Positions 22,521-34,322 of a DNA stretch of 64,000 bases are shown here, piece by piece. The position numbers were made by a program, and so were the translations under genes. The first letter of the stretch is position 1; each line of letters starts with the position of its first letter. Below the pieces are notes generated by a model that made no database searches, was not told where the DNA came from, and was given only the letters and a program-made list of their open reading frames with translations. The stretch comes from Amaricoccus macauensis (GTDB lineage: Bacteria; Pseudomonadota; Alphaproteobacteria; Rhodobacterales; Rhodobacteraceae). The stretch spans positions 496,001 to 560,000 of the forward strand of contig NZ_JACHFM010000001.1 in NCBI RefSeq assembly GCF_014201905.1. Reading direction: 5' to 3'.

Positions 22521-22564
22521 GCGAGGCGACGTGGCGGAGTGGTTACGCAGCGGATTGCAAATCC
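22521..22564 (+). repeat. attL: 44-bp direct repeat
   Basis: These 44 bp are identical to 32834-32877. They begin 4 bp before the first tRNA-Cys base and run through the D-arm and anticodon loop into the 3' side of the anticodon stem. Sequence similarity stops abruptly after 22564, marking the left boundary of the integrated element. Confidence 0.92.
22525..22564 (+). pseudogene. Truncated tRNA-Cys (5' half)
   Basis: The first 40 nt of tRNA-Cys(GCA), up to the 3' side of the anticodon stem. Beyond this the sequence no longer forms a T-arm or an acceptor 3' strand. It is the displaced host half of the gene after insertion. Confidence 0.9.
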
Positions 22565-22701
22565 CCGGATTTGTGTTTCGAAATCAACCATATCCCATCG
22601 AAATGTTATCAGGACATTCCGGCAACGGAAGGTGAACCTGAGAACCCGCTTCCGGCACCAAAATCTCGGCAAAAGCACTGGCTCGGGCGGGGGTGCCAGC
22701 T

Positions 22702-23436
22702 GTGAGCATCAAGCTCATGACGGCCGTCTGGGAGCGCGAGGATCTCGACCCATACGAGCGCTTGGTGCTCCTCGCTCTGGCCGACCACGCCAATGTTGAG
22801 GGCCACTGCTACCCGTCCGTGGCTCGGCTTTGCCAGCGCACCGGCATGAAGGAGCGTGGTGTCCAGAACGTGATCCGCAGGCTCGCCGATCCCGAGCGCG
22901 GGTTGATCTCTGTTAAAGAGGGCGGCGGCAGGCGGATCAATAACCGGTACACCATCACCGCAAACCTCTTGGAGCCGGCTAAACCCCGCACGGGAAACCC
23001 TGTTTCGGATGCAGAAACCCCGCATCCCACGACAGAAACCCCGCATCTGACGACAGGAAACCCCGCATCAGATGCACCCGAACCTTTAAGAGAACCGTCA
23101 AGAAACCGTCAGGAGAAGAGAGAGAGTGCGCGCGCCCAAGCGAGCCCGATCCCTCCAGACTGGACCCCTTCCATCCGCAACTTCGCCGACGCCTCCGAGC
23201 TCGGCTTCTCGCCCGAGGAGGCGAATCGTGAAGCACGATCATACCTCGATTACTATCTCGCCCATGGCACTCGCCGAGCAGACTGGGATGCCTCCTGGCG
23301 CTCATGGCTTCGCAAGAGCCGACAGTTTGCGGGCAGCGAGATGGCTGGCAGAGCGCCAGCCCCGGGAGGTGGACGCGGCCGCGGCATCGCGGCTGTCCTC
23401 GCTGATCAGCGTCGAGGTCAGGCCCCTCTACCATGA
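22702..23436 (+). CDS. Helix-turn-helix replication-type protein
   Basis: A 244-residue protein. The N-terminal 85 residues form a winged HTH typical of phage replication initiators (DLDPYERLVLLALADHANVEG, then CQRTGMKERGVQNVIRRL). A Pro/Thr-rich linker with repeated NPxSDAETPH-like segments follows, and then a C-terminal motif DWDASWRSWLRKSRQF found in DnaT/O-like phage replication proteins. It probably binds the element's origin and helps recruit replication machinery. It is the first gene inside attL. Start is uncertain between GTG 22702 (used) and GTG 22693. Its 3' end overlaps the next gene out of frame. Confidence 0.7.
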   Translation: MSIKLMTAVWEREDLDPYERLVLLALADHANVEGHCYPSVARLCQRTGMKERGVQNVIRRLADPERGLISVKEGGGRRINNRYTITANLLEPAKPRTGNPVSDAETPHPTTETPHLTTGNPASDAPEPLREPSRNRQEKRESARAQASPIPPDWTPSIRNFADASELGFSPEEANREARSYLDYYLAHGTRRADWDASWRSWLRKSRQFAGSEMAGRAPAPGGGRGRGIAAVLADQRRGQAPLP

Positions 23437-23929
23437 AATCTCCTCGGACGGGCAAGCCTACGGTTCGTTTCGCGCTGCCATCCGGGACGTGTGTGATGAT
23501 GAACGCAAGCGCGCCTTGCGGCAGGTTCAGGCCTTCATGACCTCAGCGCCGGAGGAGGCGCTGGAAGACTGGCTAGCCGAGCTATCCGTGATCGTCGCCA
23601 GACGGCCCGAGGAAGACGTCACCGAGGCACTACGTCTGAGGGCCTACGTCACGCGACTGCAGAGCTACCCGGCGGATGTGGCCAAGTACGTGCTGCTCGA
23701 CAAGGTGTGGCGCTTCTGGCCGACATGGGCCGAGCTGAAGGATGCTTGCGACGAGCTCGTGGCGACCCGCCTCATGTTCGCTCGAGTTCTCGGCGAGCTC
23801 GCTCCGCCGTCCCTCCCTCCTGCGCCTCCCCCTCTGACCAACGAGGAACGGGCGGAACAGGCGCGTTTGCGCGCTGAGAACAGAGAGATCATCAAGACTC
23901 TGATCCGCCAGTGGGAGAGGGCGGAGTGA
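23264..23929 (+). CDS. Hypothetical element protein, possible replication partner
   Basis: A 221-residue, helix-rich protein with no domain I can name. A conserved-looking core runs LRAYVTRLQSYPADVAKYVLL then FWPTWAELKDACDELV, and the tail is a Pro-rich linker followed by a charged coiled coil ending in IKTLIRQWERAE. Its place directly after the replication HTH protein resembles helicase-loader genes, but this is inference from position only. With ATG 23264 it overlaps the previous gene by 173 nt in another frame; a later start (GTG 23369) would shorten the overlap to 68 nt. Its stop overlaps the next ATG. Confidence 0.55.
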   Translation: MALAEQTGMPPGAHGFARADSLRAARWLAERQPREVDAAAASRLSSLISVEVRPLYHEISSDGQAYGSFRAAIRDVCDDERKRALRQVQAFMTSAPEEALEDWLAELSVIVARRPEEDVTEALRLRAYVTRLQSYPADVAKYVLLDKVWRFWPTWAELKDACDELVATRLMFARVLGELAPPSLPPAPPPLTNEERAEQARLRAENREIIKTLIRQWERAE

Positions 23930-24198
23930 TGGCGCATGTGCGGGCGACTGGTGTGGAGCCTGAGGAGCAGGCCGAGGCGCTTCTCTCTGCGGCGGGCCTC
24001 GCCGTCCGTGACGTGATGTTGAGCATCCTCCGCCAGTCTTGCGAGCAGGGCGTCGAGCTCAACGTCGCCTCGGCCGTGGTGCTGGGCGTGGGGGCGAAGG
24101 GCCTGCGGCTGGCGCTCGGGCCAGTCGAGGCGGCGCGGATCGTGCGGCAGATGGCCGACGAGGTCGAGACCGACGTGCAGCCGGCGGGACGGCATTGA
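23929..24198 (+). CDS. Hypothetical small protein upstream of terminase
   Basis: An 89-residue, mostly helical protein, translationally coupled to the previous gene (TGATG at 23927-23931). It shows no signal peptide and no recognisable DNA-binding motif. It occupies the place where a small terminase subunit would normally be encoded, 81 bp before the large terminase. It is shorter than usual TerS proteins and I cannot support that identity from sequence. Confidence 0.5.
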   Translation: MAHVRATGVEPEEQAEALLSAAGLAVRDVMLSILRQSCEQGVELNVASAVVLGVGAKGLRLALGPVEAARIVRQMADEVETDVQPAGRH

Positions 24199-24201
24199 AA
24201 A

Positions 24202-24236
24202 TGGTCCCAATGCCCGGCCTCGGCGGTAGGGGACCA
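24202..24236. other. Inverted repeat upstream of terminase, candidate packaging site
   Basis: TGGTCCC (24202-24208) and GGGACCA (24230-24236) form a 7-bp inverted repeat in the 81-bp gap before the terminase gene, the commonest place for cos or pac sites in HK97-type phages. It could equally be an ordinary hairpin. Confidence 0.25.
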
Positions 24237-24279
24237 CGCGCGGGTCTTATCTTCCTTTCGCGCTGCGCGGGAGGGGTCC

Positions 24280-25794
24280 GTGTCTGACGCCTCGAAAGCC
24301 CTCCGGTTCCTGCGGTCCCTGAGCATCCCAGAGGGGCCGCTCGCCGGGCAGCCGATGAAGATCGCCCCGTTCCAGCGGAGCTTCGTCAAGGGCGCGCTGG
24401 CGCCGGAGACCCAAGTGGCAGTGCTGAGCATCGGGCGCGGCAACGCGAAGTCCGCGCTCTCGGCCGGCATCTCACTCGGCTCGCTCCTGGGCGAGTGGGA
24501 CAGGCAGCCGCGGCGCGAGATCGTGCTGGCGGCGCGCACCCGCGACCAGGCGCGCATCGCTTGGGACTTCGCGGCAGGCTTCGCGGCGACACTGCCCGAG
24601 GAGACGCAGAAGCGGTTGACCTTCCGGCGATCGCCCCGGCTGGAAATCGAGTACGAGGACGAGCGCGGCTCGCACTTCCTTCGGGCGATCGCGGCCGATG
24701 GCAAGTCGGCACTCGGCTCGGCTCCGACGCTGGTGCTGATGGATGAGCGCGGGCACTGGCCGGTGGGGCGCGGCGACGACCTCGAGCAGGCGCTCCTTTC
24801 CGGCTTGGGCAAGCGCGGCGGACGGGCCTTCATCATCTCGACCTCGGCCGCCGACGACGCGCACCCGTTCTCGCGCTGGATCGACGAGGAGCTTCCCGGC
24901 AAGTTCGTGCAGGAGCATCGTCCAGCGCCGGGGCTGCCGGCCGATGACCTCGCCTCGCTCCTCGCGGCGAACCCGGGCGCGAAGCTCGGCATCGGCTCGT
25001 CGGTGGAGTGGCTCCTCGCCACGGCGCGGCGGGCGATCGCGCAGGGCGGCACGGCGTTGACGAGCTTCCGGCTTTACAACCGCAACGAGCGTGTCTCGGG
25101 CGAGGCGCGCGACCTCCTGCTGACCCTCGACGAGTGGCTGGCATGCGAGGTGGCGGAGCTGCCGGCGCGCTCCGGCCCGGTGGTGATCGGGATCGACCTC
25201 GGCGGCTCGTCGTCCATGACGGCGGCGACCTTCTACTGGTACGAGACCGGTCGCCTCGAGGCGCTGGGGTGGTTCCCGACGAAGCCGTCCCTCCTCGACC
25301 GCGGGCAGCGCGACGGCGTGTCGGGGCGCTACGGCGAGATGGCCGACCGGGGCGAGCTCCGCACCCTCGGCGCCATGACGGTTCCGGTTGCGTCGTGGCT
25401 CCGCGAGGTGCTGCAGCACGTCCAGGGCGAGACGATCGCGGCCGTCACCGCGGACCGCTTCAAGCAGGCCGAGCTCGGTGAAGCGATGGACAAGGCGGGC
25501 CTGAAGGCGCCCGTGGTCTGGCGCGGCATGGGCTTCCGCGACGGCTCCGAGGACGTCGACCGCTTCCGGCGCGCGTGCTTCGACGGGCAGGTGAGGGCGC
25601 GGCCGTCGCTGCTGCTGCGCTCGGCGTTCTCGGACGCGATCTGCCTCCGCGACCCGGCCGGCAACCTGAAGCTCACCAAGGGCCGCAGCCTCGGGCGGAT
25701 CGACGCCGCATCGGCGTCCGTCCTGGCCGTCGCCGAGGGCGCCCGGATCGCGGCGCGCGGCGCCCGTGTCGTGAGGCCGCCGCAATGGGCGTGA
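24280..25794 (+). CDS. Phage terminase large subunit (HK97 type)
   Basis: A 504-residue packaging motor. The ATPase domain has a Walker-A-like GRGNAKSA (residues 52-59), Walker B LVLMDE (D155, E156) and coupling motif ISTSAADD. The nuclease domain begins with the metal aspartate D306 in VIGIDLGGSSS, with further acidic residues downstream. It is full length and uninterrupted for the Terminase_1 family. The GTG start at 24280 follows GAGGGG at 24271-24276. It would translocate and cut DNA into procapsids made from the neighbouring capsid and portal genes. Its stop overlaps the HNH gene. Confidence 0.9.
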   Translation: MSDASKALRFLRSLSIPEGPLAGQPMKIAPFQRSFVKGALAPETQVAVLSIGRGNAKSALSAGISLGSLLGEWDRQPRREIVLAARTRDQARIAWDFAAGFAATLPEETQKRLTFRRSPRLEIEYEDERGSHFLRAIAADGKSALGSAPTLVLMDERGHWPVGRGDDLEQALLSGLGKRGGRAFIISTSAADDAHPFSRWIDEELPGKFVQEHRPAPGLPADDLASLLAANPGAKLGIGSSVEWLLATARRAIAQGGTALTSFRLYNRNERVSGEARDLLLTLDEWLACEVAELPARSGPVVIGIDLGGSSSMTAATFYWYETGRLEALGWFPTKPSLLDRGQRDGVSGRYGEMADRGELRTLGAMTVPVASWLREVLQHVQGETIAAVTADRFKQAELGEAMDKAGLKAPVVWRGMGFRDGSEDVDRFRRACFDGQVRARPSLLLRSAFSDAICLRDPAGNLKLTKGRSLGRIDAASASVLAVAEGARIAARGARVVRPPQWA

Positions 25795-26129
25795 GACGCT
25801 GGCATCGTCCCTCAGAAGTCGTCTGCCGCTCGCCGCGGTGGAAGGCGCTTCGCCTCGAGGCACTCCGCCGCGACGGCTGGCGGTGCTGTCAGTGCGGCGC
25901 CCGCGGGCGCCTCGAGGTGCATCACGTGAAGCCGGTGCGGACGCATCCCGAGCTTGGCTTCGACCTCGGCAACCTGCGGAGCCTCTGCGGCTCCTGTCAC
26001 AACATCGCCACCCGGGCCGAGCTCGGGCAGGCGCCGACCTCACCAGAACGGGCAGCCTGGCGCGCGGCCGTGCGCGAGCTCGCCCGAACCCCCATCACGG
26101 CCGAAGAGGAGAGCATCCGTGCTCGATAG
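25785..26129 (+). CDS. HNH endonuclease of the packaging module
   Basis: A 114-residue HNH protein. Zinc-binding pairs CCQCG and CGSCH flank the central HHVKP, and an ending rich in Arg follows. Small HNH proteins beside terminase are required for cos cleavage and packaging in HK97-like phages and are a constant part of capsid-forming satellites. Here it lies after the large terminase rather than before the small subunit, and it overlaps both neighbours (start inside terL, stop inside the capsid gene), so expression is probably coupled. Confidence 0.85.
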   Translation: MGVRRWHRPSEVVCRSPRWKALRLEALRRDGWRCCQCGARGRLEVHHVKPVRTHPELGFDLGNLRSLCGSCHNIATRAELGQAPTSPERAAWRAAVRELARTPITAEEESIRAR

Positions 26130-27384
26130 CGTGAAGATCCAGCGGCGGCAGTCGGAGATCCGCCAGAACCTCGCCGAGCTCGTCGGCAAGGAGACCCCGA
26201 CCGAAGACGAGACCCGGAGCATGGAAGGCCTCGACCGGGAGTATCGGAGCAACGAGGTGCGCTTCCGCGCGGCGCTCGTCGCCGAGGACACCGAGCGGCG
26301 CGAGGCGAAAGGCGAACTCGAGGAGCGCGGTGGCAAGGCTTGGGCCGAGCTCCTCGCCGGCTTCGAGCTCCGGCAGGTGGCGCTCGCGCTCGACGAGGGC
26401 CGCCCACTCGATGGGCGCACGGCCGAGGTGGTGCAGGAGCTGCGCTCGGCCGGGGGCTACCGCGGCATCCCGGTGCCGTGGGCCGCGCTTGAAACCCGCG
26501 CCGGCGAGACGGTGGCGGCGGGCACGCCCGACCCGATCCAGACGCGCCCGATCATCGACCGGCTGTTTCCCGACAGCGTGGCGGCGAAGATGGGCGCGCA
26601 GATGGTCAACATCGACTCGGGCGAAATCGAATGGCCGGTGGTGACCTCGAACGTCACCGCGGGCTGGGCGGACGGCGAGCTCGCGAACGTCGCGGGGCCG
26701 ACCACCTTCGTCACGGCCGACCGGGCGCTGGCGCCGAACAACACCCTCGGCGTGCAGATGAAGATCTCGCGCAAGGCGCTGAAGCAGAGCGGCGCGGCGC
26801 TCGAGGACGCGGTGCGTCGCGACATGAATGGCGCGATGGCCGTGGCGACCGACAAGGCGGTCTTCCTCGGCACCGGGGCGAACGGGCAGCCGCTCGGCGT
26901 CGTCACCGGCGCAGCCACCTACGGCATCACCTCAACCGCGATCGCGGCCTCAGCGACCTGGGCGGCGTTTCGGGCTGGCGTCGTGCGGTTCATGACCGCG
27001 AACGCTGCAACCGGCCCGGCGGCGGTGAAGGCGCTGCTGCGGCCCGAGCTCTGGGGCTTCCTCGACGGCGCGCTCGTGTCGGGCACGGCGGTCTCGGAGT
27101 GGGACCGGCTTCTCGGCAGCATCCCGGCGGGCAACCTGGTGCTCACCACGAACGCGCTACCGGCGCCGAGTGGCTCGCCTCTGGCTGTGACCGGGCTGCT
27201 CACGACCTCGGCCGGTGGCGTCCCGCCGATCTTTGTGGGCACCTGGGGCGCCGTTGACCTGGTCCGCGATCCGTTCTCGGATGCGGCCTCTGGCGGCCTG
27301 CGCATCACCGCGCTGGCGACGATCGACGTGACGGTGGCGCGGCCGGCGCAGCTCGAGATCCTGACGGGGCTCCGGCTGGCATGA
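26119..27384 (+). CDS. HK97-family major capsid protein
   Basis: A 421-residue capsid protein. The first 90 or so residues are charged and helical (SVKIQRRQSEIRQNLAELVG), matching the scaffolding delta domain that the protease removes. The HK97 fold follows from about residue 110, with the N-arm, the E-loop region around TSNVTAGWADGE, the spine helix DAVRRDMNGAMAVATDKAVF, and the GTGANGQPLGV segment. It is full length, with no frameshift. GTG 26119 has GAGGAGAG just upstream. The 4-nt overlap with the protease gene suggests tight stoichiometric control. Confidence 0.9.
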   Translation: MLDSVKIQRRQSEIRQNLAELVGKETPTEDETRSMEGLDREYRSNEVRFRAALVAEDTERREAKGELEERGGKAWAELLAGFELRQVALALDEGRPLDGRTAEVVQELRSAGGYRGIPVPWAALETRAGETVAAGTPDPIQTRPIIDRLFPDSVAAKMGAQMVNIDSGEIEWPVVTSNVTAGWADGELANVAGPTTFVTADRALAPNNTLGVQMKISRKALKQSGAALEDAVRRDMNGAMAVATDKAVFLGTGANGQPLGVVTGAATYGITSTAIAASATWAAFRAGVVRFMTANAATGPAAVKALLRPELWGFLDGALVSGTAVSEWDRLLGSIPAGNLVLTTNALPAPSGSPLAVTGLLTTSAGGVPPIFVGTWGAVDLVRDPFSDAASGGLRITALATIDVTVARPAQLEILTGLRLA

Positions 27385-27998
27385 TGGGCGAGGAGCTTCA
27401 GCTCGGCGCGGCGCTCGGCGGGCTCGAGCTCCGCGCGGCCGGTGCCGCGGGCGGCCGCCAGATCAGAGGACGCTTTCCGTACGGGAAGCGCGCCGTCCTG
27501 AGCGATGGCGGCAGGACCGGCCGGCCCCGCAAGGAAGTGATCGCGCCGAAGGCCTTCGCCTATCGGGTGGAGCGGCGCGAGACGATTCATCTCCTGGTCG
27601 GGCATTCCTACGATCGGCCGCTCGCCTCGACGAACAACGGCTCGCTCCTGCTGCGCGACACCCCCGAGGCACTGAGCTTCGAGGCGCGCGTCGCGCCGGA
27701 GTTGGAAGCGGCGCCATTCTTCGCAGACTTCTGGGCGGCGTTGCGCGCCGGCCTGATCGGCGGCGTCTCGCCCGGCTTCCGCATTCCGCCCCCGGCCGCG
27801 GTCCCGCCTGAGGAGGCGGAGAAGACCGAGGAGGAGGATCCGGCCGAGGGCCGCGCACTGATCCGTACGATCCTGCAGGCGCTCCTCTTCGAGCTCTCTC
27901 TCGTCGTCTCGCCGGCTTACCAAGAGACGGAAGTCGAGGCGCGCTCAGGCCTGATCCTGCCGCGCCCGGTGTCGCATCTCCGGAGGTGGCGCCCATGA
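27381..27998 (+). CDS. HK97-family prohead protease
   Basis: A 205-residue serine protease of the Peptidase_S78/U35 family. The catalytic histidine is H75 in VGHSYDRPLA and the serine S130 in GGVSPGFR, the usual spacing for the family. It would cleave the delta domain of the capsid protein during maturation. It lies downstream of the capsid gene, whereas HK97 and most relatives have protease before capsid. The ATG at 27381 overlaps the capsid stop by 4 nt; the second ATG at 27384 is equally possible. Confidence 0.87.
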   Translation: MMGEELQLGAALGGLELRAAGAAGGRQIRGRFPYGKRAVLSDGGRTGRPRKEVIAPKAFAYRVERRETIHLLVGHSYDRPLASTNNGSLLLRDTPEALSFEARVAPELEAAPFFADFWAALRAGLIGGVSPGFRIPPPAAVPPEEAEKTEEEDPAEGRALIRTILQALLFELSLVVSPAYQETEVEARSGLILPRPVSHLRRWRP

Positions 27999-28534
27999 CG
28001 ACGCTCAGGACCGACGAGGGCCGCCCGACGCTCTGGCCTGTCATTCCCGGGCTCTCTGCCCGGGCCGCGGCGATCGAGCCGGAAGTGATCTGGCGCCGAA
28101 TCGAATCATGGATCGCCTGGCGCTGGGGCGTGCGCTCCTGCTCCTTTATCATTGAGGGTGGCTGCGGCGCCTGGCGGGCTCCGCTGCACCCCTTCACCGT
28201 TTCCACGGTAGAGGCCTGGGGCGGGGAGGCCTGGGGAGCCGCCACGCTCGCAGCCGATCCGCTCGGCGGCCGCTCCCTCGGCGACAGGTCGCACTATCGC
28301 ATCACCGGCACGCTCGGCTTCACAGAAGACCCGCCCGCGGACGTGCTCCAAGCCTGTCGACGCCTGGCCGAGTACAGCTCCGAGAAGCATGGGATCGACG
28401 GCGCGAGTTCGCGCACGGTGGAGCTTGGCGGCCAGCTCCGCGAAAGCTACGAGCGGGCGCCTGTCTGGCTCGCCCGAGCGCTCACCTATTCCGGTGCTGC
28501 GGACCTGCTGCGCCCCTATCGGAGGGCACCGTGA
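27995..28534 (+). CDS. Probable head-completion/adaptor protein
   Basis: A 179-residue protein between protease and portal. Its C-terminal half is helical and ends with LLRPYRRAP, an ending common in gp6/gp8-type head-tail connectors. The N-terminal half contains a beta-rich stretch (HYRITGTLGFTEDPP) like an inserted domain. CGGAGG at 27981-27986 precedes ATG 27995, which overlaps the protease stop by 4 nt. The adaptor assignment rests on position and the C-terminal pattern only. It would be the surface on which a helper phage's tail could dock. Confidence 0.55.
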   Translation: MTTLRTDEGRPTLWPVIPGLSARAAAIEPEVIWRRIESWIAWRWGVRSCSFIIEGGCGAWRAPLHPFTVSTVEAWGGEAWGAATLAADPLGGRSLGDRSHYRITGTLGFTEDPPADVLQACRRLAEYSSEKHGIDGASSRTVELGGQLRESYERAPVWLARALTYSGAADLLRPYRRAP

Positions 28535-29613
28535 TGGGCATCCTCAACATCTTCCGCCGCCCGAAGCTGGAACGGCGCTCGGGCATGGCCGCCGGCTACA
28601 CCGCGGAGATCCTCGCCGCGCGGCAGAGCTACATCGCCGGCCGCTCCGGACTCGGCGAGCTGACGAGCTCGGTGCAAAGCTGCGTCTCGCTCTGGGAGGC
28701 TGGTTTTGCCATGGCCAAGGTCGACGGGACCGACCTCCTCGGCCGGCGCACCATGGCGCTCCTAGCGCGCTCACTGGCACTGCGCGGCGAGGCAGTGTTC
28801 CTGATCCGGGACGACATGCTCGTGCCGTGCGCCGATTGGGACCTCTCGACCCGCAACGGCCGCCCGAGGGCCTATCGGCTCAGCGTCTCGGAGGCTGGCG
28901 GCGGGCGCTCGGAAACTGCTCTTGCGGCCGAGGTGCTGCACCTGCGGATAGGCAGTGACCCGGTGGCGCCGTGGTCGGGCAGCGCGCCGCTGCGGCGGGC
29001 AAGCCTCACGGCGGAGCTGCTGCACTCGCTTGAGGCGGCGCTCGGCGAAGTCTACGCGCTGGCGCCCCTTGGCAGCCAAGTGGTTCCCATGCCCGAGAAC
29101 CCCGAAATGGACAACGAGACGCTCGGCCGAGACTTCCGCGGGCGTCGGGGGCGAGTCCTCCTGCGGGAGAGTGTCACCGTCACCGCAGCCGGCGGGCCGG
29201 CTCCTGCGGCCGACTGGCGTCCCGCCGACCTCACGCCCAACCTGCGCGACAGCCTGGCGGTCGAAAGCCTCGAGACGGCGCGGAGCGGGATCATGAGCGC
29301 CTTCGGTGTTCTGCCCGGCCTCCTGTCGCCGGCAACGACCGGGCCGCTCGTGCGCGAGGCGCAGCGGCACCTGGCGCAATGGACCTTGCAGCCGATCGCC
29401 GAGCTCCTCGCCGAGGAGGCCTCCGGGAAGCTCGGGATGCCGGTGGCAATCGACGTCATGGGACCGACGCAAGCCTTCGATGCTGGCGGCAGCTCAAGAG
29501 CGGTGCAGGGCCTCATTGGCGCGCTGGCGGAGGCGAAAGGCGCCGGGCTCTCGCCGGCGGAGATCGCGGCCGCGTTCGGCGCAGTCGACTGGGCCGAGGC
29601 GCTGAAGCGGTAG
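28534..29613 (+). CDS. HK97-family phage portal protein
   Basis: A 359-residue portal protein with the typical N-terminus (MGILNIFRRPKLERR) and conserved segments VSLWEAGFAMAKVDG, RNGRPRAYRLSVSE and the stem/crown region rich in helices (SAFGVLPGLLSPATTGPLVREAQRHL). It is slightly shorter than many HK97 portals (about 380-420) but lacks no obvious block. It forms the dodecameric DNA entry vertex. ATG 28534 overlaps the previous stop; GTG 28531 is an alternative. It is the last gene of the head operon, and no tail gene follows. Confidence 0.85.
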   Translation: MGILNIFRRPKLERRSGMAAGYTAEILAARQSYIAGRSGLGELTSSVQSCVSLWEAGFAMAKVDGTDLLGRRTMALLARSLALRGEAVFLIRDDMLVPCADWDLSTRNGRPRAYRLSVSEAGGGRSETALAAEVLHLRIGSDPVAPWSGSAPLRRASLTAELLHSLEAALGEVYALAPLGSQVVPMPENPEMDNETLGRDFRGRRGRVLLRESVTVTAAGGPAPAADWRPADLTPNLRDSLAVESLETARSGIMSAFGVLPGLLSPATTGPLVREAQRHLAQWTLQPIAELLAEEASGKLGMPVAIDVMGPTQAFDAGGSSRAVQGLIGALAEAKGAGLSPAEIAAAFGAVDWAEALKR

Positions 29614-29761
29614 ACGAGATGGGCAGGCCGCGCCCGGGACGCGATGGCCCCCGAAGCGGCCCCGTTAGTCGGGTTGTGGGCAAACTCCGACAAGCTTCGG
29701 GCGGTTGACCTTAGCCGCCGCGGGAGAGGGCGCAGCGGACTTGCACCGCGTGGCACCGAGG

Positions 29762-29790
29762 GGCCGGGGGCGATGCTCCCGGCCTTCGCT
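29762..29790 (+). terminator. Possible terminator of the head-gene operon
   Basis: A 7-bp stem (GGCCGGG 29762-29768 with CCCGGCC 29778-29784) followed by TTCGCTCTT lies 150 bp after the portal stop and before the oppositely oriented membrane-protein gene. The downstream tract is only partly T-rich. Confidence 0.45.
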
Positions 29791-29811
29791 CTTGAGCAGG
29801 AGAAGGTCTGT

Positions 29812-30312
29812 TCACTCTACTCTTTGTGTCGGATTGTCCTGTGCAGCACGGAACTGCTCCAACTGCCGAAACTGTACGACGACGGCGTCTGCAATCCTAT
29901 CGATCTGCGCCTTTAGTTCCCGCATGTACAACAATTGTTCGTCAATTGGAATATCTTTAATACTACTTACTCTGTATATTAGATCTTTTGCAAGGCTCTC
30001 CGCTATTTCCAAGAGCTCCTGGATTTGATAACCGCGGTCGGCTCTGGCGGCACTGCCATACCGATCAGCATCAATATATGCTTGAACCCATTGCTCCCTA
30101 ACATTGTAAATATCTATGATAGATCTATCATTAACAATCTTCGCATCCTGAGCAATCTTTTCGATCTCCAATTTAACAGATCTGTCATTCTGCTCCTCGG
30201 CTTTTCTCATCGCTTCCCGGCTGACATCAAGCGCCTCGCGGTTTGACAGGTATGACAGCCCGGAGACGGCGAGAGACAGAATGGAAATCAAGATCGGAAG
30301 AGATGGCTTCAT
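29812..30312 (-). CDS. AT-rich membrane-anchored coiled-coil cargo protein
   Basis: A 166-residue protein with an N-terminal hydrophobic segment (PILISILSLAVSGLSYL) followed by a long charged, helical, coiled-coil-like body. It should be anchored in the inner membrane. Base composition is clearly lower in G+C than everything around it, with many ATA, AAT and ATT codons, showing recent acquisition from another source. It shares an operon with the repressor (4-nt overlap at 30309-30312) and so would be expressed in the integrated state, as superinfection-exclusion or defence genes often are. No specific family recognised. Confidence 0.6.
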   Translation of the reverse strand: MKPSLPILISILSLAVSGLSYLSNREALDVSREAMRKAEEQNDRSVKLEIEKIAQDAKIVNDRSIIDIYNVREQWVQAYIDADRYGSAARADRGYQIQELLEIAESLAKDLIYRVSSIKDIPIDEQLLYMRELKAQIDRIADAVVVQFRQLEQFRAAQDNPTQRVE

Positions 30313-30551
30313 GAAGCTTTGAGCCTCACCCCCGCTCCACCCCCGTTCTCCGCGATGAACTCGACGCCAGCCGCTTCGAGGGCGGCGCGGATTGCCGCAG
30401 CGTTCGCGACCGTGATGCTGACCACACCCGTCTCGGCCTCAGCTCGTCGCACCGTAGCAACACCTACCCGAGCCGCCTCCGCTAGTTGCTGGGCCGTGAT
30501 CCTAAGCATGGCGCGTGCCGCCCGAATTTGCTCTGCTGTGATCTCATTCAT
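30309..30551 (-). CDS. XRE-type HTH repressor of the element
   Basis: An 80-residue Cro/CI-type DNA-binding protein. The helix-turn-helix reads ITAQQLAEAARVGVATVRRAE, followed by a short C-terminal strand region (ALEAAGVEFIAENGGGAGVRL). It is probably the master repressor, since three matching operator sites lie at its own start and before the divergent gene set leading to AlpA and integrase. ATG 30551 is used because the alternative ATG 30575 would put the first operator inside the gene. Neither start has a Shine-Dalgarno, so the mRNA may be leaderless. Confidence 0.75.
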   Translation of the reverse strand: MNEITAEQIRAARAMLRITAQQLAEAARVGVATVRRAEAETGVVSITVANAAAIRAALEAAGVEFIAENGGGAGVRLKAS

Positions 30552-30610
30552 ATCACTTGATCGCCGTTCTATCATGATGTATCACTTGATACGCAGAATA
30601 TCACATGATC
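30551..30610. promoter_or_regulatory. Three-copy operator for the XRE repressor
   Basis: TATCACTTGATC (30551-30562), TATCACTTGATA (30580-30591, within the palindrome GTATCACTTGATAC at 30579-30592) and TATCACATGATC (30599-30610) share the consensus TATCAC-T/A-TGAT. A weaker ATCATGAT lies at 30571-30578. The sites fill the space between the repressor start and the divergent plus-strand genes, as lambda-type operators do. Confidence 0.75.
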
Positions 30611-30636
30611 GACCGAGCAACCAAGGGAGAAACCCA

Positions 30637-30732
30637 ATGACCACACCCGCCAGAACGGCGGCCGGAGAGGCCGTGCCCGGCGTCGACGTCAGCGCCGCGG
30701 AAAGACTGCTCCTGGAGGAAACCCATGGCTAA
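30637..30732 (+). CDS. 31-residue small protein
   Basis: ATG 30637 is preceded by AGGGAGA at 30623-30629 and opens a 31-residue frame ending in LLLEETHG. It lies just downstream of the operators and overlaps the next start by 8 nt. It could be a leader peptide that couples translation to the next gene or a functional small protein. Conservation cannot be judged here. Confidence 0.4.
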   Translation: MTTPARTAAGEAVPGVDVSAAERLLLEETHG

Positions 30733-30952
30733 TATCTCGCGCCGCTCCCTACTCAGCAAGGCCCCCGCCGTCGCGATCACCGTAGCGGTGCCGGCATCGG
30801 CGCTGGAGGTCGTCGAGACGAACCAAGAGCGCCTTCGGCGCCTCGCACGTGAGCTGATGGAGGGTTTCGACTCGGAATACGATCTTGGCGATGATCACTA
30901 TCGGCGCATCGGCCGAGCCATGCTCTACTTCAGCCGCCTCGCGGAATTGTGA
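30725..30952 (+). CDS. Small hypothetical protein with Tat-like N-terminus
   Basis: A 75-residue protein. The N-terminus NISRRSLLSKAPAVAITVAVPASA has a twin-arginine pattern and a short hydrophobic stretch; the rest is a charged helix (RLRRLARELMEG). GGAGGA at 30713-30718 supports the start. If exported it would be unusual for a satellite gene, but the hydrophobic segment is weak, so a cytoplasmic location is possible. Function unknown. Confidence 0.5.
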   Translation: MANISRRSLLSKAPAVAITVAVPASALEVVETNQERLRRLARELMEGFDSEYDLGDDHYRRIGRAMLYFSRLAEL

Positions 30953-31062
30953 GAATGATCTGGCGCGTGGGAACTGCCTGTCACACCGAGCCTAGCGTCC
31001 CAGCACCGAATCCGCGGCTTGACCGTCGTAAGCTGCGACGGTACAAGCCGTCCCAACTTATC

Positions 31063-31536
31063 ATGGAGGCTCTGGTGTTTGATCCCGAGAAGCACGTTCT
31101 CTCGCCGATGGAGGTGTCGCAAATCTCGGACGTTCACGCCGACATGCTTCGAGATTGGCGCTACCGCGGCCTTATCGAGGTCTACGGGCGGGTGCAGCCG
31201 AACGGCCGGTGGAGCTACTCGCTCCGGGAGGCCGTGGCCTTCCACTTCGCGTGGCAGCTCATCACCGATGCAAGGGTCGACCGGGCAAGCGCGCTTCGTC
31301 TCGGATACAATGTCGCGCCGAACCTCATCACTGCGCTTCGCGGCGACGGCCCGTGGAAGAAGTTCTATGCGATGGTCTACGCCCGAGAGGCGAATGGCCT
31401 CCACGGGTGGTCGGTATGGGAGTCCGACGATCTGCGTGAGCTCGAGGGCTATGCGGTCATGGTCGACAACCTCGTGAACGTCGGAGCTTTCGCCGCCGCC
31501 GCGCCGCGGGAGTTGCGCGAGGCTGTGGAGGCCTGA
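31063..31536 (+). CDS. MerR-like HTH protein
   Basis: A 157-residue protein with an N-terminal MerR-type winged helix (LSPMEVSQISDVHADMLRDW, then RGLIEVYGRVQPNGRWSYSLREAVAF) and a C-terminal helical region of unknown role. It may regulate integrase/excision genes downstream, which follow after 2 bp. The start is uncertain: ATG 31063 fits the domain, but the same frame is open from 30949, where GTGA overlaps the previous stop. Confidence 0.6.
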   Translation: MEALVFDPEKHVLSPMEVSQISDVHADMLRDWRYRGLIEVYGRVQPNGRWSYSLREAVAFHFAWQLITDARVDRASALRLGYNVAPNLITALRGDGPWKKFYAMVYAREANGLHGWSVWESDDLRELEGYAVMVDNLVNVGAFAAAAPRELREAVEA

Positions 31537-31538
31537 CT

Positions 31539-31742
31539 ATGGGTGCCCATCCCGCCCCCCTCTTCGCGACCGAGCGCACCGCGGCGCAGCTTCTCGACAT
31601 GAAGCCCACCGAGTTCGCGGCTCTTGTCGAGGGCGGGCACTTGCCGCGCCCGAAGCTGCTCGGGGGGCTGAAGCGCTGGGACGTGCAGGAGCTTCAGAAG
31701 ATCATCTCGGGACAGTCCATCGAGGGCGAGATCACATGGTGA
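31539..31742 (+). CDS. AlpA-like excisionase/regulator
   Basis: A 67-residue small HTH protein of the AlpA/Xis type: TAAQLLDMKPTEFAALVEGGHLPRPKLLGGLKRWDVQELQKII, with the conserved tryptophan-containing wing. AlpA proteins control excision and integrase expression in P4-like and PICI satellites. It overlaps the integrase start by 7 nt, so the two are expressed together. Confidence 0.75.
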   Translation: MGAHPAPLFATERTAAQLLDMKPTEFAALVEGGHLPRPKLLGGLKRWDVQELQKIISGQSIEGEITW

Positions 31743-32749
31743 AGCGCTTCCTCTGGCGTGATCGTCACGGCCGGACCCGGGTCCGGAAGAACGGCAAGAC
31801 CTATCCCCTCCGCGACGACAAAGGCGTTTGGCACGAGCCGGACACCACGGAGGGCGATCGGCTCTATTGGGAGATCGTCACCGGCAAGCGCGCCGAAGCG
31901 AGCCGCTCCTGGAAGGCCGCTATCGACCTTCTCCGCGCCGATGACCGATGGCACGAGCTTTCCCCCCGGTATCGCGCCGACCTTGAGCCGATCCTGGATT
32001 ACCTCGTGGAGAAGATCGGCAAGCGCGACGTGGCCCGCCTGACGGCACCCGACATCTACGCTGCGATGGACAAGAACAAGCACCGGGTCCGCTTCGCGAA
32101 CTACATCCCGGTGGCGATCAGCCTTATCTTCAAGGTGATCGTTCGCAAGCGCTGGCTGACCGAGAACCCCGCCCGGGGGATGGAGCTTCTCAAGGTGCCG
32201 AAGGACCGGCGCAAGCCGCACGAACCGTGGACCGATGCGGCAGTGGCGAAGTGGCGCGAGAACGCCTCACCCCTCCCGCGCCTGATCTTCGAGATCGCTG
32301 TGGGCAGCGCGCAGCGGCCGGGCGACTGGGTGGATTTCACCTGGGGAGACTATGACGGAGACAGCCTCCGCTTGCGCCAGAACAAGAGCGACAAGCCCTT
32401 GCTCCTGCCCTGTACGGTGAGTCTGAAGACCGCCCTCGACACGGCCAAGGCAGCCCTGCCCTACGCGCCCATGCCGAGCCTCTTCATCATCACCGAGGCT
32501 GACGGCTTGCCCATGACCTACCGGCGCATGGCGCAGATATTGCTGGCCGAACGCAAGCGCCTCGGCGTCGAGGCGCACGACCAACACGCTCTTCGCTACC
32601 GGGCGGTCAAGGAACTCGCCTGGGCTGGCTGCGACGACGACGAGATCATGGCCTACTCGGGCCACTCCACGAAGGCGATGGTCAGGAAGTATGCGGGTGA
32701 GGCCCGTCAGGAGATGGCTGCGCTCCGGGCGCGGGAGAAACGCCGGTGA
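31736..32749 (+). CDS. int: Tyrosine site-specific integrase
   Basis: A 337-residue integrase. The N-terminal arm-binding part (FLWRDRHGRTRVRKNG) and a SAM-like core-binding domain are followed by the catalytic domain with all active residues: R194 (SAQRPGDW), K217 (QNKSDKP), H284-x-x-R287 (HALRYRA), H310 (SGHST) and Y319 (VRKYAG). It is intact and sits 84 bp from attR, the expected position. It would insert the element into tRNA-Cys and, with the AlpA-like protein, excise it. Confidence 0.92.
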   Translation: MVKRFLWRDRHGRTRVRKNGKTYPLRDDKGVWHEPDTTEGDRLYWEIVTGKRAEASRSWKAAIDLLRADDRWHELSPRYRADLEPILDYLVEKIGKRDVARLTAPDIYAAMDKNKHRVRFANYIPVAISLIFKVIVRKRWLTENPARGMELLKVPKDRRKPHEPWTDAAVAKWRENASPLPRLIFEIAVGSAQRPGDWVDFTWGDYDGDSLRLRQNKSDKPLLLPCTVSLKTALDTAKAALPYAPMPSLFIITEADGLPMTYRRMAQILLAERKRLGVEAHDQHALRYRAVKELAWAGCDDDEIMAYSGHSTKAMVRKYAGEARQEMAALRAREKRR

Positions 32750-32774
32750 ACAGAACAAGCACGGAACAGCAACC

Positions 32775-32795
32775 TGATAACCGGAGTGATAACCG
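32775..32795 (+). repeat. Paired 9-bp repeats near attR
   Basis: TGATAACCG occurs at 32775-32783 and 32787-32795, a 12-bp period, between the integrase stop and the attR-side tRNA promoter. Such short spaced repeats are typical integrase arm-binding or excisionase sites. Confidence 0.4.
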
Positions 32796-32796
32796 C

Positions 32797-32823
32797 TTGA
32801 CCACCTCCCCGGAAAAACCTAAT
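32797..32823 (+). promoter_or_regulatory. Element-borne promoter for tRNA-Cys
   Basis: TTGACC (32797-32802) and CCTAAT (32818-32823) have a 15-bp spacer and lie 14 bp before the tRNA 5' end, the same geometry as the host promoter at 22484-22510. The spacer sequence differs, so this is not part of the recombined repeat but a separately kept promoter carried by the element. Confidence 0.6.
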
Positions 32824-32833
32824 GCCTCCAACG

Positions 32834-32877
32834 GCGAGGCGACGTGGCGGAGTGGTTACGCAGCGGATTGCAAATCC
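32834..32877 (+). repeat. attR: 44-bp direct repeat
   Basis: Identical to 22521-22564. It covers the 4 bases before tRNA-Cys and its first 40 nt. Crossover must lie inside it, so the 3' part of the intact tRNA is host DNA and the upstream part is at least partly element DNA. Confidence 0.92.
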
Positions 32878-32911
32878 GTGCACACCGGTTCGATTCCGGT
32901 CGTCGCCTCCA
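32838..32911 (+). tRNA. tRNA-Cys(GCA), reconstituted
   Basis: A 74-nt cloverleaf with encoded CCA. The acceptor GGCGACG pairs with CGTCGCC, the D-arm contains GGAGTGGTTACGC, the anticodon loop is TTGCAAA (GCA) and the T-arm is ACCGGTTCGATTCCGGT. Its 5' half comes from the attR repeat, so function now depends on the element's promoter copy. Confidence 0.95.
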
Positions 32912-32933: not shown

Positions 32934-34322
32934 CTAGACAAGGTCTGGCAGCGGGCCGGTGTAGTCGGCGAGCGTCACCTGCAGGCGATCGATGTAGTCG
33001 TCATCGTATTCCGTGAGAGGCGCCAGTCGCAGGGTGATGATGGTGTCGTTCCCGACGACCTCATAGCCGATTTCGCTGTACTCGAGGATCGTCGTCCGCC
33101 CGACAAAGGTCAGCGGCCCGTGCGCGGGATCGACGTCGAGCTCGATCTTCTCCCCGCGCTCGAAATCCATGATCGTGACACTCGGATGCAGATAGGTGAA
33201 ATCGTAGACGCCGAACACCTGCGTGAAAACGCGGTCGGCAATCACGTAGGTGTCGCTGCCTTCGCCGCCGGAGACGTCGGCCATGCCCCAGCCGGTGTGG
33301 ATCGTGTCATTCCCCTCGCCCCCACTCAGGGCATCAGTGCTGACCGCCGTATAACCGCCGTAGTCTTCGGGAGCGATGTAGATCGAGCCGTTGCCGTGGA
33401 TCTCGTCGTCGCCAGCCCCGCCATTCAGCGTTTCCTCGCCCGCCTCGCCCCCGATGATCGTGTCATTGCCAGCCCCGGCAAAGACCACATTGTCGCCATC
33501 GTGCACCGAGATCAGGTTGTCGGCGGTGCTGCCGTTCACCGCGTCATCGCCGTCCCCGGTTTCGACATTCTCGATGCTGACGACCCTCTCCCGCTCGGCG
33601 TCCGCCACGACGAGCGTGCCGAGCGCCATGTTCAGCTTGACGCCGGGCGTGACCCACACCCGGTTCCAGTGTTCGAGATAAGTCGGAACGGTGACGACGA
33701 GCGTGTCGCTGCCCGCCCCACCATCGATGAAGTCGACGCCGTCGGAGATGAGGATGGCGTCATCTCCGTCCACTTCCTCCACCATCACCGTGGAGAAGAA
33801 GATGTCATCGTGGAGATCGCCGCGCATCGTGTCGTTGCCGAAGCCGCCCGCCAGGCTGTCCGGGCCGTTGCCACCGTCGAGGCTGTCGTTGCCGGCACCG
33901 CCGATCAGCGTGTCGGACCCGTAGTTGCCCGAGAGCGCGTCATTGCCGTTGTTGCCCCGGAATGTGTTCGCGGCACCGTCGCCGATGAACGTGTCGCCAG
34001 CGGACCCGCCTTCGATCCCCTCGATACTGACGATCGTTTCCGAGCGCCACCTCTGGCCGGGGAAGCTGACAACTCCGGTCCTCAGGTCCGCGCGGACCGG
34101 TGAGGTGTTGCTGGAATAGACTATGAGATCAAGGCCGCCGCCGCCGTCGAGCAGGTCTGTTCCGTCGCCGCCGTCGAGCGTGTCGGCGCCATTGCCGCCG
34201 AAAAGCCGGTCATTGCCACCCACGCCGACGAGGCTGTCGTCCCCCCAGAAGCCGTGGATCGCGTCCGAGGTCGCGGTCCCGCGCAGTTCATCAACGCCGT
34301 TCGTGCCGAATATCGTGGCCAC
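32934..34322 (-). CDS. RTX calcium-binding repeat protein
   Basis: A 462-residue acidic protein built of hemolysin-type nonapeptide repeats (GGxGxDxLx), for example GGNDRLFGGNGADTLDGGDG near residues 35-55, with further blocks around 125-160 and 290-320. It has no N-terminal Sec signal, consistent with C-terminal type I secretion, and ends in a hydrophobic DYTGPLPDLV. No catalytic domain is recognisable, so it may be a calcium-binding surface or biofilm protein. No T1SS ABC/HlyD pair is adjacent. Its stop lies 22 bp from the tRNA-Cys end, just outside the element. Confidence 0.85.
   Translation of the reverse strand: MATIFGTNGVDELRGTATSDAIHGFWGDDSLVGVGGNDRLFGGNGADTLDGGDGTDLLDGGGGLDLIVYSSNTSPVRADLRTGVVSFPGQRWRSETIVSIEGIEGGSAGDTFIGDGAANTFRGNNGNDALSGNYGSDTLIGGAGNDSLDGGNGPDSLAGGFGNDTMRGDLHDDIFFSTVMVEEVDGDDAILISDGVDFIDGGAGSDTLVVTVPTYLEHWNRVWVTPGVKLNMALGTLVVADAERERVVSIENVETGDGDDAVNGSTADNLISVHDGDNVVFAGAGNDTIIGGEAGEETLNGGAGDDEIHGNGSIYIAPEDYGGYTAVSTDALSGGEGNDTIHTGWGMADVSGGEGSDTYVIADRVFTQVFGVYDFTYLHPSVTIMDFERGEKIELDVDPAHGPLTFVGRTTILEYSEIGYEVVGNDTIITLRLAPLTEYDDDYIDRLQVTLADYTGPLPDLV

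Follow-up and report, generated by a model that had tools for sequence, protein, structure and literature searches.

The integrating satellite P4 has a genome of about 11 kb, similar in size to the family described here, and is finally packed into a small head that carries a helper tail. Rhizobium phage 16-3 and HK97 are complete phages of 40–60 kb with a small terminase subunit (TerS), a tail and lysis genes, none of which is recognised in the element reported here. The Rhodobacter capsulatus gene transfer agent (GTA) lacks an integrase, has tail genes of its own and fills its particles with host DNA. P4 differs from the family in having no major capsid protein of its own and using P2 parts (11.6 kb, T=4, according to passages in PMC7762592). 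Capsid-forming PICIs (cf-PICIs) are given a mean size of 14 kb in passages of PMC10803314, in which the main hosts named do not include Rhodobacteraceae, and are described as widely distributed across Bacteria in parts of PMC10690885. Parts of that paper also report that the Streptomyces satellites MulchRoom and MiniFlayer likewise encode packaging genes, capsid genes and a head-to-tail adapter, and that MulchRoom has an integrase and appears to use its helper's tail; these satellites are unlike our family in being actinobacterial and in having direct terminal repeats, virulent helpers, a scaffold and a small terminase. The element of PMC12324425 is, from the portion of that article consulted, a different one and was set aside as a match. 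Here we describe an element in a 64,000-nucleotide stretch of Amaricoccus macauensis DNA (the window), which we consider likely to be an intact member of a capsid-forming phage satellite family centred on Rhodobacteraceae.

The element (22521–32877) is bounded by perfect 44-bp direct repeats with a spacing of 10313, the left copy at 22521–22564 having the same letters as the right copy at 32834–32877. ARAGORN places a tRNA-Cys(gca) gene over the right copy (32838–32911, forward strand), so that the 10.3-kb element in tRNA-Cys reported by the first-pass annotation is confirmed. Empty sites are present in two of ten other genomes of the genus (L300 and L307), where an intact tRNA-Cys lies 106–147 bp from the same PCMT gene as in the window. 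Like cf-PICIs, the element is an integrated island of satellite size with an integrase and a specific att site.

At its left side, the forward strand encodes a replication initiator-like winged-helix protein of 247 aa (22693–23436; HTH_36 2.5e-13, over the cut-off; phrog_1032 6.7e-27), a 233-aa protein without assigned function called by coding potential (23228–23929; no significant Pfam or PHROG family match for 23264–23926), and, directly before terL, an orphan 89-aa protein (23929–24198) that is a small-terminase candidate by position only. A 95-aa form of this orphan (23911–24195) has no family match in Pfam or PHROG, and a scan of IMG/VR with the 89-aa form returned the same element as its only relative. 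On the right side, two genes are on the reverse strand: a 166-aa ORF without assigned function and with an N-terminus that is hydrophobic by eye (29812–30312; weak PHROG matches, best E 0.019), and an Xre-like regulator (30309–30575; HTH_3 5e-4, phrog_3 2e-4). The forward strand then carries an ORF for a 75-aa protein with a twin-arginine-like N-terminus by eye (30725–30952; no significant match), a candidate MerR-like regulator of a variable family with relatives in the satellite family (31063–31536; weak MerR match, E 0.06), an AlpA/excisionase-like protein (31539–31742; phrog_66 0.002, HTH_17 0.02) and a tyrosine integrase (31736–32749; PF00589 1.8e-11, phrog_1 8e-20). The integrase and replication-type genes proposed earlier therefore stand on family matches, but the AlpA-like protein and the repressor are present as candidates, their HTH_17 and HTH_3 matches falling below the Pfam cut-offs.

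Between these lies an unbroken forward-strand block in which all six genes match known families, in agreement with the earlier description of a complete and uninterrupted HK97 head module. It comprises the terminase large subunit (TerL, 504 aa, 24280–25794; phrog_9 1.3e-55, with PF03354 and PF20441 over cut-off), an HNH endonuclease (25785–26129; PF01844 over cut-off, phrog_144 2e-19; the start was picked by eye, the gene caller having placed it at 25926), the major capsid protein (MCP, 26119–27384; PF05065 1.3e-15), an S78 prohead protease (27381–27998; PF04586 2.9e-16), a head-tail adaptor of 179 aa (27995–28534; phrog_442 2.5e-6, no Pfam match) and the portal protein (28531–29613; PF04860 7.8e-11, 42.2 bits against a cut-off of 39.1). 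An AlphaFold2 model and fold comparisons assign the MCP to the HK97 fold and give it an N-terminal helical (delta-like) domain. Like cf-PICIs, the element has its own capsid, protease, portal and connector genes together with its own large terminase and HNH, and differs in this from classical PICIs, which are without capsid or portal genes of their own. Pfam and PHROG searches recognised no small terminase subunit in the element, HNH-domain matches to a small-terminase PHROG being left out of this count, whereas cf-PICIs have TerS. HK97 and 16-3 resemble the element in their TerL family (28% identity), in an HK97-fold head and in having the terminase genes at the cos end of the genome, which in the element would be the candidate site ahead of terL, with an HNH gene near cos in 16-3.

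Relatives in general phage and plasmid collections are distant, with one exception. TerL matched 55 phage records, all below 60% identity and at about 28% among the matches listed; the capsid matched 19 at 24–35% over parts, none spanning 80%, and searches of the same collection with the portal and with the adaptor gave no match. In the plasmid collection, a 1.58-Mb Pseudorhodobacter turbinis replicon carries a TerL of 71.6% identity, the other TerL matches listed being at most 31%, or up to 35% for short pieces.

Closer relatives are numerous in Rhodobacterales and in IMG/VR. Of 390 genomes from the order, 54 hold portal relatives, 44 of these being near-full matches at E <1e-100, and relatives also occur in at least 200 IMG/VR stretches; 177 IMG/VR contigs were retrieved by way of a protein, and 169 of them are shorter than 15 kb. 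In 97 fetched loci, which include some single loci present in two collections, terL and portal keep the same order and lie too close together to admit a tail module. Forty-seven of these, picked for having terL and portal, are repeat-bounded and have distinct TerL sequences. They measure 9.3–11.3 kb (mean 10.42, sd 0.48), and 43 overlap a tRNA gene, with 13 kinds of tRNA gene represented; the expectation that related genomes would hold the same block with conserved size and boundaries is borne out. No convincing att repeat was evident in five long loci, one of which was fetched twice, and a few relatives are fragments (G004, G199, G101, G139). Because the circular contig L078, a family member, has no recognised integrase, it is no proof that the integrated kind excises. 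The block is found in many genera centred on Rhodobacteraceae, as the first reading of the element as an alphaproteobacterial counterpart of cf-PICIs would have it, but members in Pusillimonas and Salinisphaera take the family outside Alphaproteobacteria.

TerL, capsid and portal are present in all 47 bounded members, a set chosen for terL and portal, and capsid identities to the window are mostly 55–75% (28–30% for three). Median dN/dS is 0.10 for terL, 0.12 for MCP, 0.13 for the protease, 0.12 for the portal and 0.24 for the adaptor; judged by these ratios of about 0.1, the head genes are under purifying selection. Pseudogenisation of the head genes in most copies, which would have spoken against a satellite, was not found, consistent with the earlier view that the genes are intact and the element is no decaying prophage.

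Complete prophages have tail and lysis modules, which cf-PICIs do not; like the latter, 22521–32877 showed no recognised tail, lysis or tape-measure gene in Pfam and PHROG searches (an E 0.06 spanin match of 29812–30312 was left out of the lysis count), in line with the first-pass annotation, which likewise recognised none of these and no small terminase. The gene content of the relatives was assessed from 206 representative non-head ORFs of the 47 bounded members. Their Pfam families concern replication, regulation, neck proteins, a few toxin-antitoxin-like families and one tape measure protein; the complete Pfam lists hold no lysis families, and tape-measure-like ORFs number two of the 206, in two members. 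PHROG families are represented by the best 25 of 65 and the best 25 of 58, and a single hidden tail match among them is possible. A full tail and lysis cassette, sought in the relatives, was not found. An adaptor is recognised in 45 members and an Hc1 head closure protein in 18. Two families of small ORFs, c7 (21/47) and c10 (15/47), have respectively no family match and one match to a PHROG of no assigned function (E 0.006), and no unassigned gene family is common to half of the 47 members.

Ahead of terL is a non-coding stretch conserved in the family (24201–24263, forward strand) that looks like a cos packaging site and consists of a first box (24201–24215), ACC followed by 8 nt (24233–24243) and a T/C-rich third box (24244–24263). 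This reading draws on the conservation of the site and on its partial likeness to the ends of two phages. The site precedes terL in 37 of 47 members as against 3 of 1759 control windows, the box being absent in 10 members at up to 2 mismatches and in 6 at up to 4, and it was the only match when the window was scanned at up to 2 mismatches. The ACC + 8 nt is like the terminus of the record for phage 16-3 in 3 of 141 sites at no more than 1 mismatch (0.2 expected), although two of these three come from nearly identical sites; at 2 mismatches there are 7 such sites versus 2.9 expected, and beyond this the likeness is not above chance. A similar likeness to the HK97 end is seen by eye. In a control, terL-coding 9-mers were common to up to 32 regions, as widely as 9-mers of the site, and since k-mer sharing consequently proves little, the cos argument rests on the non-coding position, the 11-mer count and the comparison with control windows. 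IMG/VR members show no accumulation of left ends at the site. The site could be a promoter or operator instead, and a capsid-forming satellite in which it serves as a late promoter or operator, with packaging starting elsewhere, is possible if somewhat doubtful: it lies close to, or directly at, the beginning of the head operon, where regulators are plausible, and in 9 of 53 IMG/VR loci it is 189–679 bp from terL, with space for another gene, but no sigma-70-like boxes are evident by eye and its composite form includes the 16-3-like and HK97-like segment.

Taken on sequence grounds, the family is characterised by site-specific integration in tRNA genes, a conserved length of about 10.4 kb, a head and packaging operon that is likewise conserved, and no recognised tail or lysis genes; particles, capsid formation, induction and tail theft are what we infer from these, and the best reading is that the family works like cf-PICIs, which are induced by a helper phage and combine small capsids with helper tails, but is smaller. 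A helper phage would trigger excision and replication of the satellite, which would assemble a small procapsid of its own out of MCP, protease and portal. Cutting at the cos-like site and filling of the head would fall to TerL with HNH, the satellite adaptor, joined in some members by their own head-closure protein, would dock it onto a helper tail, and helper lysis would free the particles.

The lack of recognised tail and lysis genes, and the few fragmentary relatives, might also be expected of a truncated or decaying prophage that kept its head genes by chance. This is very improbable, as gene order, size and boundaries are alike in many genera, head genes and adaptor have the low dN/dS values given above, and truncations that arose independently would not all arrive at 10.4 kb; a single recent truncation as the origin of the family is excluded by the capsid identities. 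Purifying selection would equally suit a GTA-like head module domesticated by the host, and the capsid and adaptor folds have GTA proteins among their best listed matches, but the integrase, att repeats, variable tRNA sites, own replication genes and patchy presence (54/390 genomes), and a GTA cluster proper elsewhere in the same genome, make it scarcely more credible. We consider it improbable, though less so than either of these, that the element is an autonomous mini-virus making a tailless or very short-tailed particle from unrecognised proteins. The ORFs without assigned function, including c7 and c10, the circular L078 and the tape-measure-like ORFs of two members are consistent with such a virus; no unassigned family reaches half of the members, however, lysis genes are not recognised, and an adaptor would be pointless in the absence of a tail.

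In preferring a capsid-forming satellite, we file the family apart from cf-PICIs while supposing that it works alike. It is smaller than the cf-PICI mean (about 10.4 versus 14 kb, passages of PMC10803314), and its order, terL-HNH-MCP-protease-adaptor-portal, probably differs from that of cf-PICIs. The capsid of the cf-PICI EcCI2 (PDB 9gyi) has the same fold, with 10% identity in the fold alignment and no sequence-profile match, and a 47-sequence MCP profile matched only 8gta (E 0.01) among PDB chains; relatedness of cf-PICI head genes is judged here on this one protein, between which and the family capsids no sequence relation was detected, and the need for such a relation is arguable. As PMC10690885 calls cf-PICIs widely distributed, some family members may already be counted among those of that paper. 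The literature searched yielded no earlier description of the family, a mention in cf-PICI-defining papers or satellite surveys being possible, and it is apparently a widespread satellite family undescribed so far. If so, a family with near-full portal matches in 44 of the 390 genomes sampled from the order had gone undescribed. It would represent a second line of satellites that steal tails and, as its packaging site can be predicted, a system in which to ask how heads choose foreign tails. Passages of PMC7762592 give model ranges of 8.1–17.1 kb for T=3 and 13.2–24.5 kb for T=4, and Luque and colleagues there call the T=3 tailed capsid, a shell of 180 subunits, "missing"; the element fits it in size, the sole ground, and the family would offer many natural candidates for such a head.

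We also considered which tails could be used. We set the R. capsulatus GTA and roseophage R4C beside the family: a GTA protein is the best match to the adaptor fold among the matches listed and GTA is among the best listed for the capsid fold, but the adaptor likeness is weak in sequence (hhalign probability 10.8, E 0.003, against the GTA adaptor) and the portals are not significantly similar (28% over part, E 0.12). The element itself is no GTA, having an integrase and att site and no recognised tail genes. GTA tails are ruled out as a general donor by the Pusillimonas and Salinisphaera members, hosts that to our knowledge are without GTA. It is unlikely that T=3 HK97-fold heads, each with one 10.4-kb cos-cut genome, dock in Rhodobacteraceae on GTA tails or on GTA-like-tipped siphophages; we know of no parasite of a gene transfer agent, and docking on GTA tails would, if true, make these satellites the first. 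Prophages of the host genome were sought through PF03354, PF04860, PF03237, PF05136 and phrog_973, by which other phage types could be missed; phrog_973 gave no match there, nor in the controls, and is therefore uninformative. The genome carries a siphoprophage with tail genes (contig C1 of G000, about 40–81 kb) and a GTA cluster (contig C3), which are respectively our candidates for the nearest helper and for a second possible source of tails.

The element at 22521–32877 is bounded by perfect 44-bp direct repeats, the right one overlapping the 5' part of a tRNA-Cys gene (32838–32911), and it combines an integrase and replication genes with an HK97 head block, as the first-pass annotation had claimed. 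Its gene order starts at the left with a replication initiator and two small proteins of unknown function, continues with TerL and HNH, and leads into genes for an HK97-type capsid protein, S78 protease, head-tail adaptor and portal. After the portal, two minus-strand genes encode an unknown protein and an Xre-like regulator; the right part carries genes for a small protein, for MerR-like and AlpA-like proteins and, last, for a tyrosine integrase. Candidates for the AlpA-like and repressor genes proposed earlier are present, although their names, like that of the MerR-like protein, depend on weak matches. Profile searches of the element recognised no tail, lysis or small-terminase gene, in agreement with the annotation, and no Hc1 head-closure protein. 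GC content falls to 58% at 30–31 kb.

The element is mobile. An empty site is seen in two of the ten other genomes of the genus (L300 and L307), with an intact tRNA-Cys 106–147 bp from the same PCMT gene and no element between them. The joined flanks of L300 align over 502 bp at 75%, and its contig stops at the tRNA, so that only one side is visible. In a third congener (L301) the tRNA-Cys and PCMT genes lie about 1.2 kb apart, and no tRNA-Cys was seen in the DNA searched from the other seven. Adjoining the insertion site, a minus-strand gene at 32934–34322 encodes a protein with nine stretches of RTX calcium-binding repeats.

The same block recurs in related genomes with conserved size and boundaries, as the annotation had proposed to check. 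Profile searches of 121 loci (L032–L151 and the window, some present twice, from two collections) detected terL in 113, capsid and protease in 111 each, and portal in 108; 97 loci share the order of terL and portal, and 71 of these have an integrase in range. Of the 71, 47 members with distinct TerL proteins remained once a repeat was required that either overlapped a tRNA or measured 19 bp or more. The 24 left out comprise 18 contigs shorter than 15 kb and the long loci L108, L110, L112, L116 and L032/L133 (one locus), in which no convincing repeat was found. Members span 9317–11346 bp (mean 10416, sd 484; mean 10479, sd 440 for the 29 with repeats of at least 40 bp); the search was open to larger spans, and rejected repeats reach about 16 kb. 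The tRNA genes that 43 members overlap are of 13 kinds. All 47 have TerL, capsid and portal, terL and portal being selection criteria; the protease occurs in 43 and HNH in 38 (by the gene caller used). The adaptor, which lies before terL or between protease and portal, is recognised in 45, and Hc1 in 18. The integrase lies right of portal or left of terL, and the replication genes vary among Prim-Pol, RepA-like AAA and O-like initiators.

Decay of the head genes is strongly argued against by low dN/dS, in line with the earlier view that the genes are intact and not those of a decaying prophage. Among pairs at 80–98.5% protein identity, median values are 0.10 for terL, 0.12 for capsid (maximum 0.56), 0.13 for protease, 0.12 for portal and 0.10 for integrase (19 pairs). 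The adaptor, at 0.24, is the fastest-changing of the genes compared, as would be expected if it faces foreign tails.

Relatives with a full tail and lysis cassette were looked for, and only two tape-measure-like ORFs were found. The scan took one or two representatives per cluster of the non-head ORFs (≥60 aa) of the 47 members, 206 in total; one tape measure protein and no lysis family appear in the complete Pfam lists (19 and 18 families), and the PHROG results cover the best 25 of 65 and the best 25 of 58 families. The ORF at L136:7753–9393 (minus strand, 547 aa) aligns with the N-terminal portion of tape measures in PHROG. An Aminobacter phage Erebus protein, however, covers 99% of it at 35% identity, and the ORF may therefore be a short but complete tape measure protein. 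No second copy was found in genome G202. A 243-aa ORF at L137:10586–11314 (plus strand) resembles the C-terminal part of a tape measure protein. Both lie directly downstream of portal and could fix or block tail length in a helper. For a further scan, 21 long IMG/VR contigs supplied 81 ORFs (≥100 aa); L093 and L094, distant larger phages (28–30% TerL), were deliberately excluded. No tail family appears among the best 25 of 58 PHROG families, and one ORF matches another phage's head and protease families.

The family is real and, judged by its genes, appears to consist of intact capsid-forming satellites; we found no description of them in the literature searched. They would work like cf-PICIs, but a sequence relation to the one cf-PICI capsid compared was not found, and we therefore do not file them as such.

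Portal relatives occur in 54/390 sampled genomes of the order (40/139 genera), with E < 1e-100 in 44; the remaining ten are fragments, weak, or 30–32% matches. The family is rare in class- and phylum-wide samples: capsid matches occur in 8/385 genomes, close only in the host's own and G666 (69%) and at 26–29% in the others, and portal matches in 6/398, five from the host's family, host included. Among the 15 loci from a search of genome contigs are those of Pusillimonas noertemannii and Salinisphaera orenii, both at 62% TerL identity. In a plasmid collection, a Pseudorhodobacter turbinis replicon of 1.58 Mb carries a TerL relative at 71.6% (NZ_CP039965.1, 1204903–1206327). IMG/VR contributed 177 loci in all (48 by TerL, 80 kept of at least 200 confirmed by portal, 62 by capsid), eight on contigs longer than 15 kb; one 7505-bp record is the window element itself. 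A divergent branch (L126, L128 and L129; 28–30% capsid identity) has the plan, size and tRNA sites of the family.

An integrase is recognised in 63/73 IMG/VR contigs of at least 9.5 kb. None is recognised in L078, which carries the whole head block and a primase-like ORF (by eye); its exact 127-bp terminal repeat suggests that it is probably a 9639-bp circle, perhaps of a non-integrating branch. L081 holds two head blocks about 10.3–10.4 kb apart and 85–93% alike, the first cut inside terL; in L258, two terL copies that are 83% alike lie 10.2 kb apart. These spacings equal the family unit size, and no integrase is recognised between the tandem head genes; tandem insertions, concatemers and mixed assembly are alternative explanations.

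Upstream of terL lies a conserved block, non-coding by gene calls (24201–24263 in the window). An 11-mer is common to 24/86 upstream regions of a non-redundant set, whereas five shuffles gave no more than 3; this alone proves little, because coding control regions share 9-mers as widely. The 15-mer CTGGTCCCAATGCCC, sought between positions −600 and +50 relative to the called terL start, is present at ≤3 mismatches in 119/180 loci, always in the same orientation. At ≤2 mismatches it is found near terL in 37/47 members versus 3/1759 control windows, and at ≤3 in 40/47 versus 35/1759; no such box was seen at ≤4 mismatches in L126, L128 and L129. The window matches it once, at ≤2 mismatches, in the 24201 region (0.16 expected). 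An exact 14-mer scan of IMG/VR gave at least 120 matches; of the 80 loci listed, 53 belong to the family and have the site in front of terL (76–118 bp away in 44), and 27 have no family head gene in the DNA examined.

This block is probably a cos (packaging) site, the rival reading being a late promoter or operator. Downstream of the 15-mer come ACC, eight bases and a T/C-rich box, and the Rhizobium phage 16-3 record likewise ends in ACC and eight bases, its last ten bases annotated as cohesive end. The HK97 record ends in ACC and nine bases, rather than eight, and begins GTTT (by eye). The terminal 11 bases of 16-3 occur at 0–1 mismatch in 3/141 family sites (0.2 expected), two of the three nearly identical, and at two mismatches in 7 (2.9 expected), with no excess beyond.

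In the cited passages of PMC7762592, model genomes average 11.78 kb for T=3 (8.1–17.1) and span 13.2–24.5 kb for T=4, and the absence of T=3 tailed phages is called puzzling. The family, at 9.3–11.3 kb, falls inside the T=3 range and below that for T=4, but size alone cannot decide the shell because P4 packs 11.6 kb in a T=4 head (PMC7762592); several genome copies per larger head are possible.

The closest candidate for a helper that supplies tails is a siphoprophage resident in the host genome, with an incoming phage just as possible. PF04860 portals in that genome belong only to the window element and the GTA cluster on contig C3 (GTA portal versus 6te8, 1e-157), and PF05136 identifies a further portal on contig C1. 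Genes at about 40.5–81 kb of C1 (G000; L340–L342), outside the window, read as the siphoprophage, with TerL, portal, a fused head protein, tail proteins, a tape measure protein of 805 aa and a tail tip that, by eye, looks like the one of the GTA. One of its genes shares phrog_6367 (function unknown) with an L126 gene located between HNH and capsid. Its late genes are split at about 52.2–55.1 kb by a cluster of MerR, MerT, MerP, MerF and MerA-like genes (by eye); the sole PHROG match of the MerA-like gene is labelled ribonucleotide reductase large subunit.
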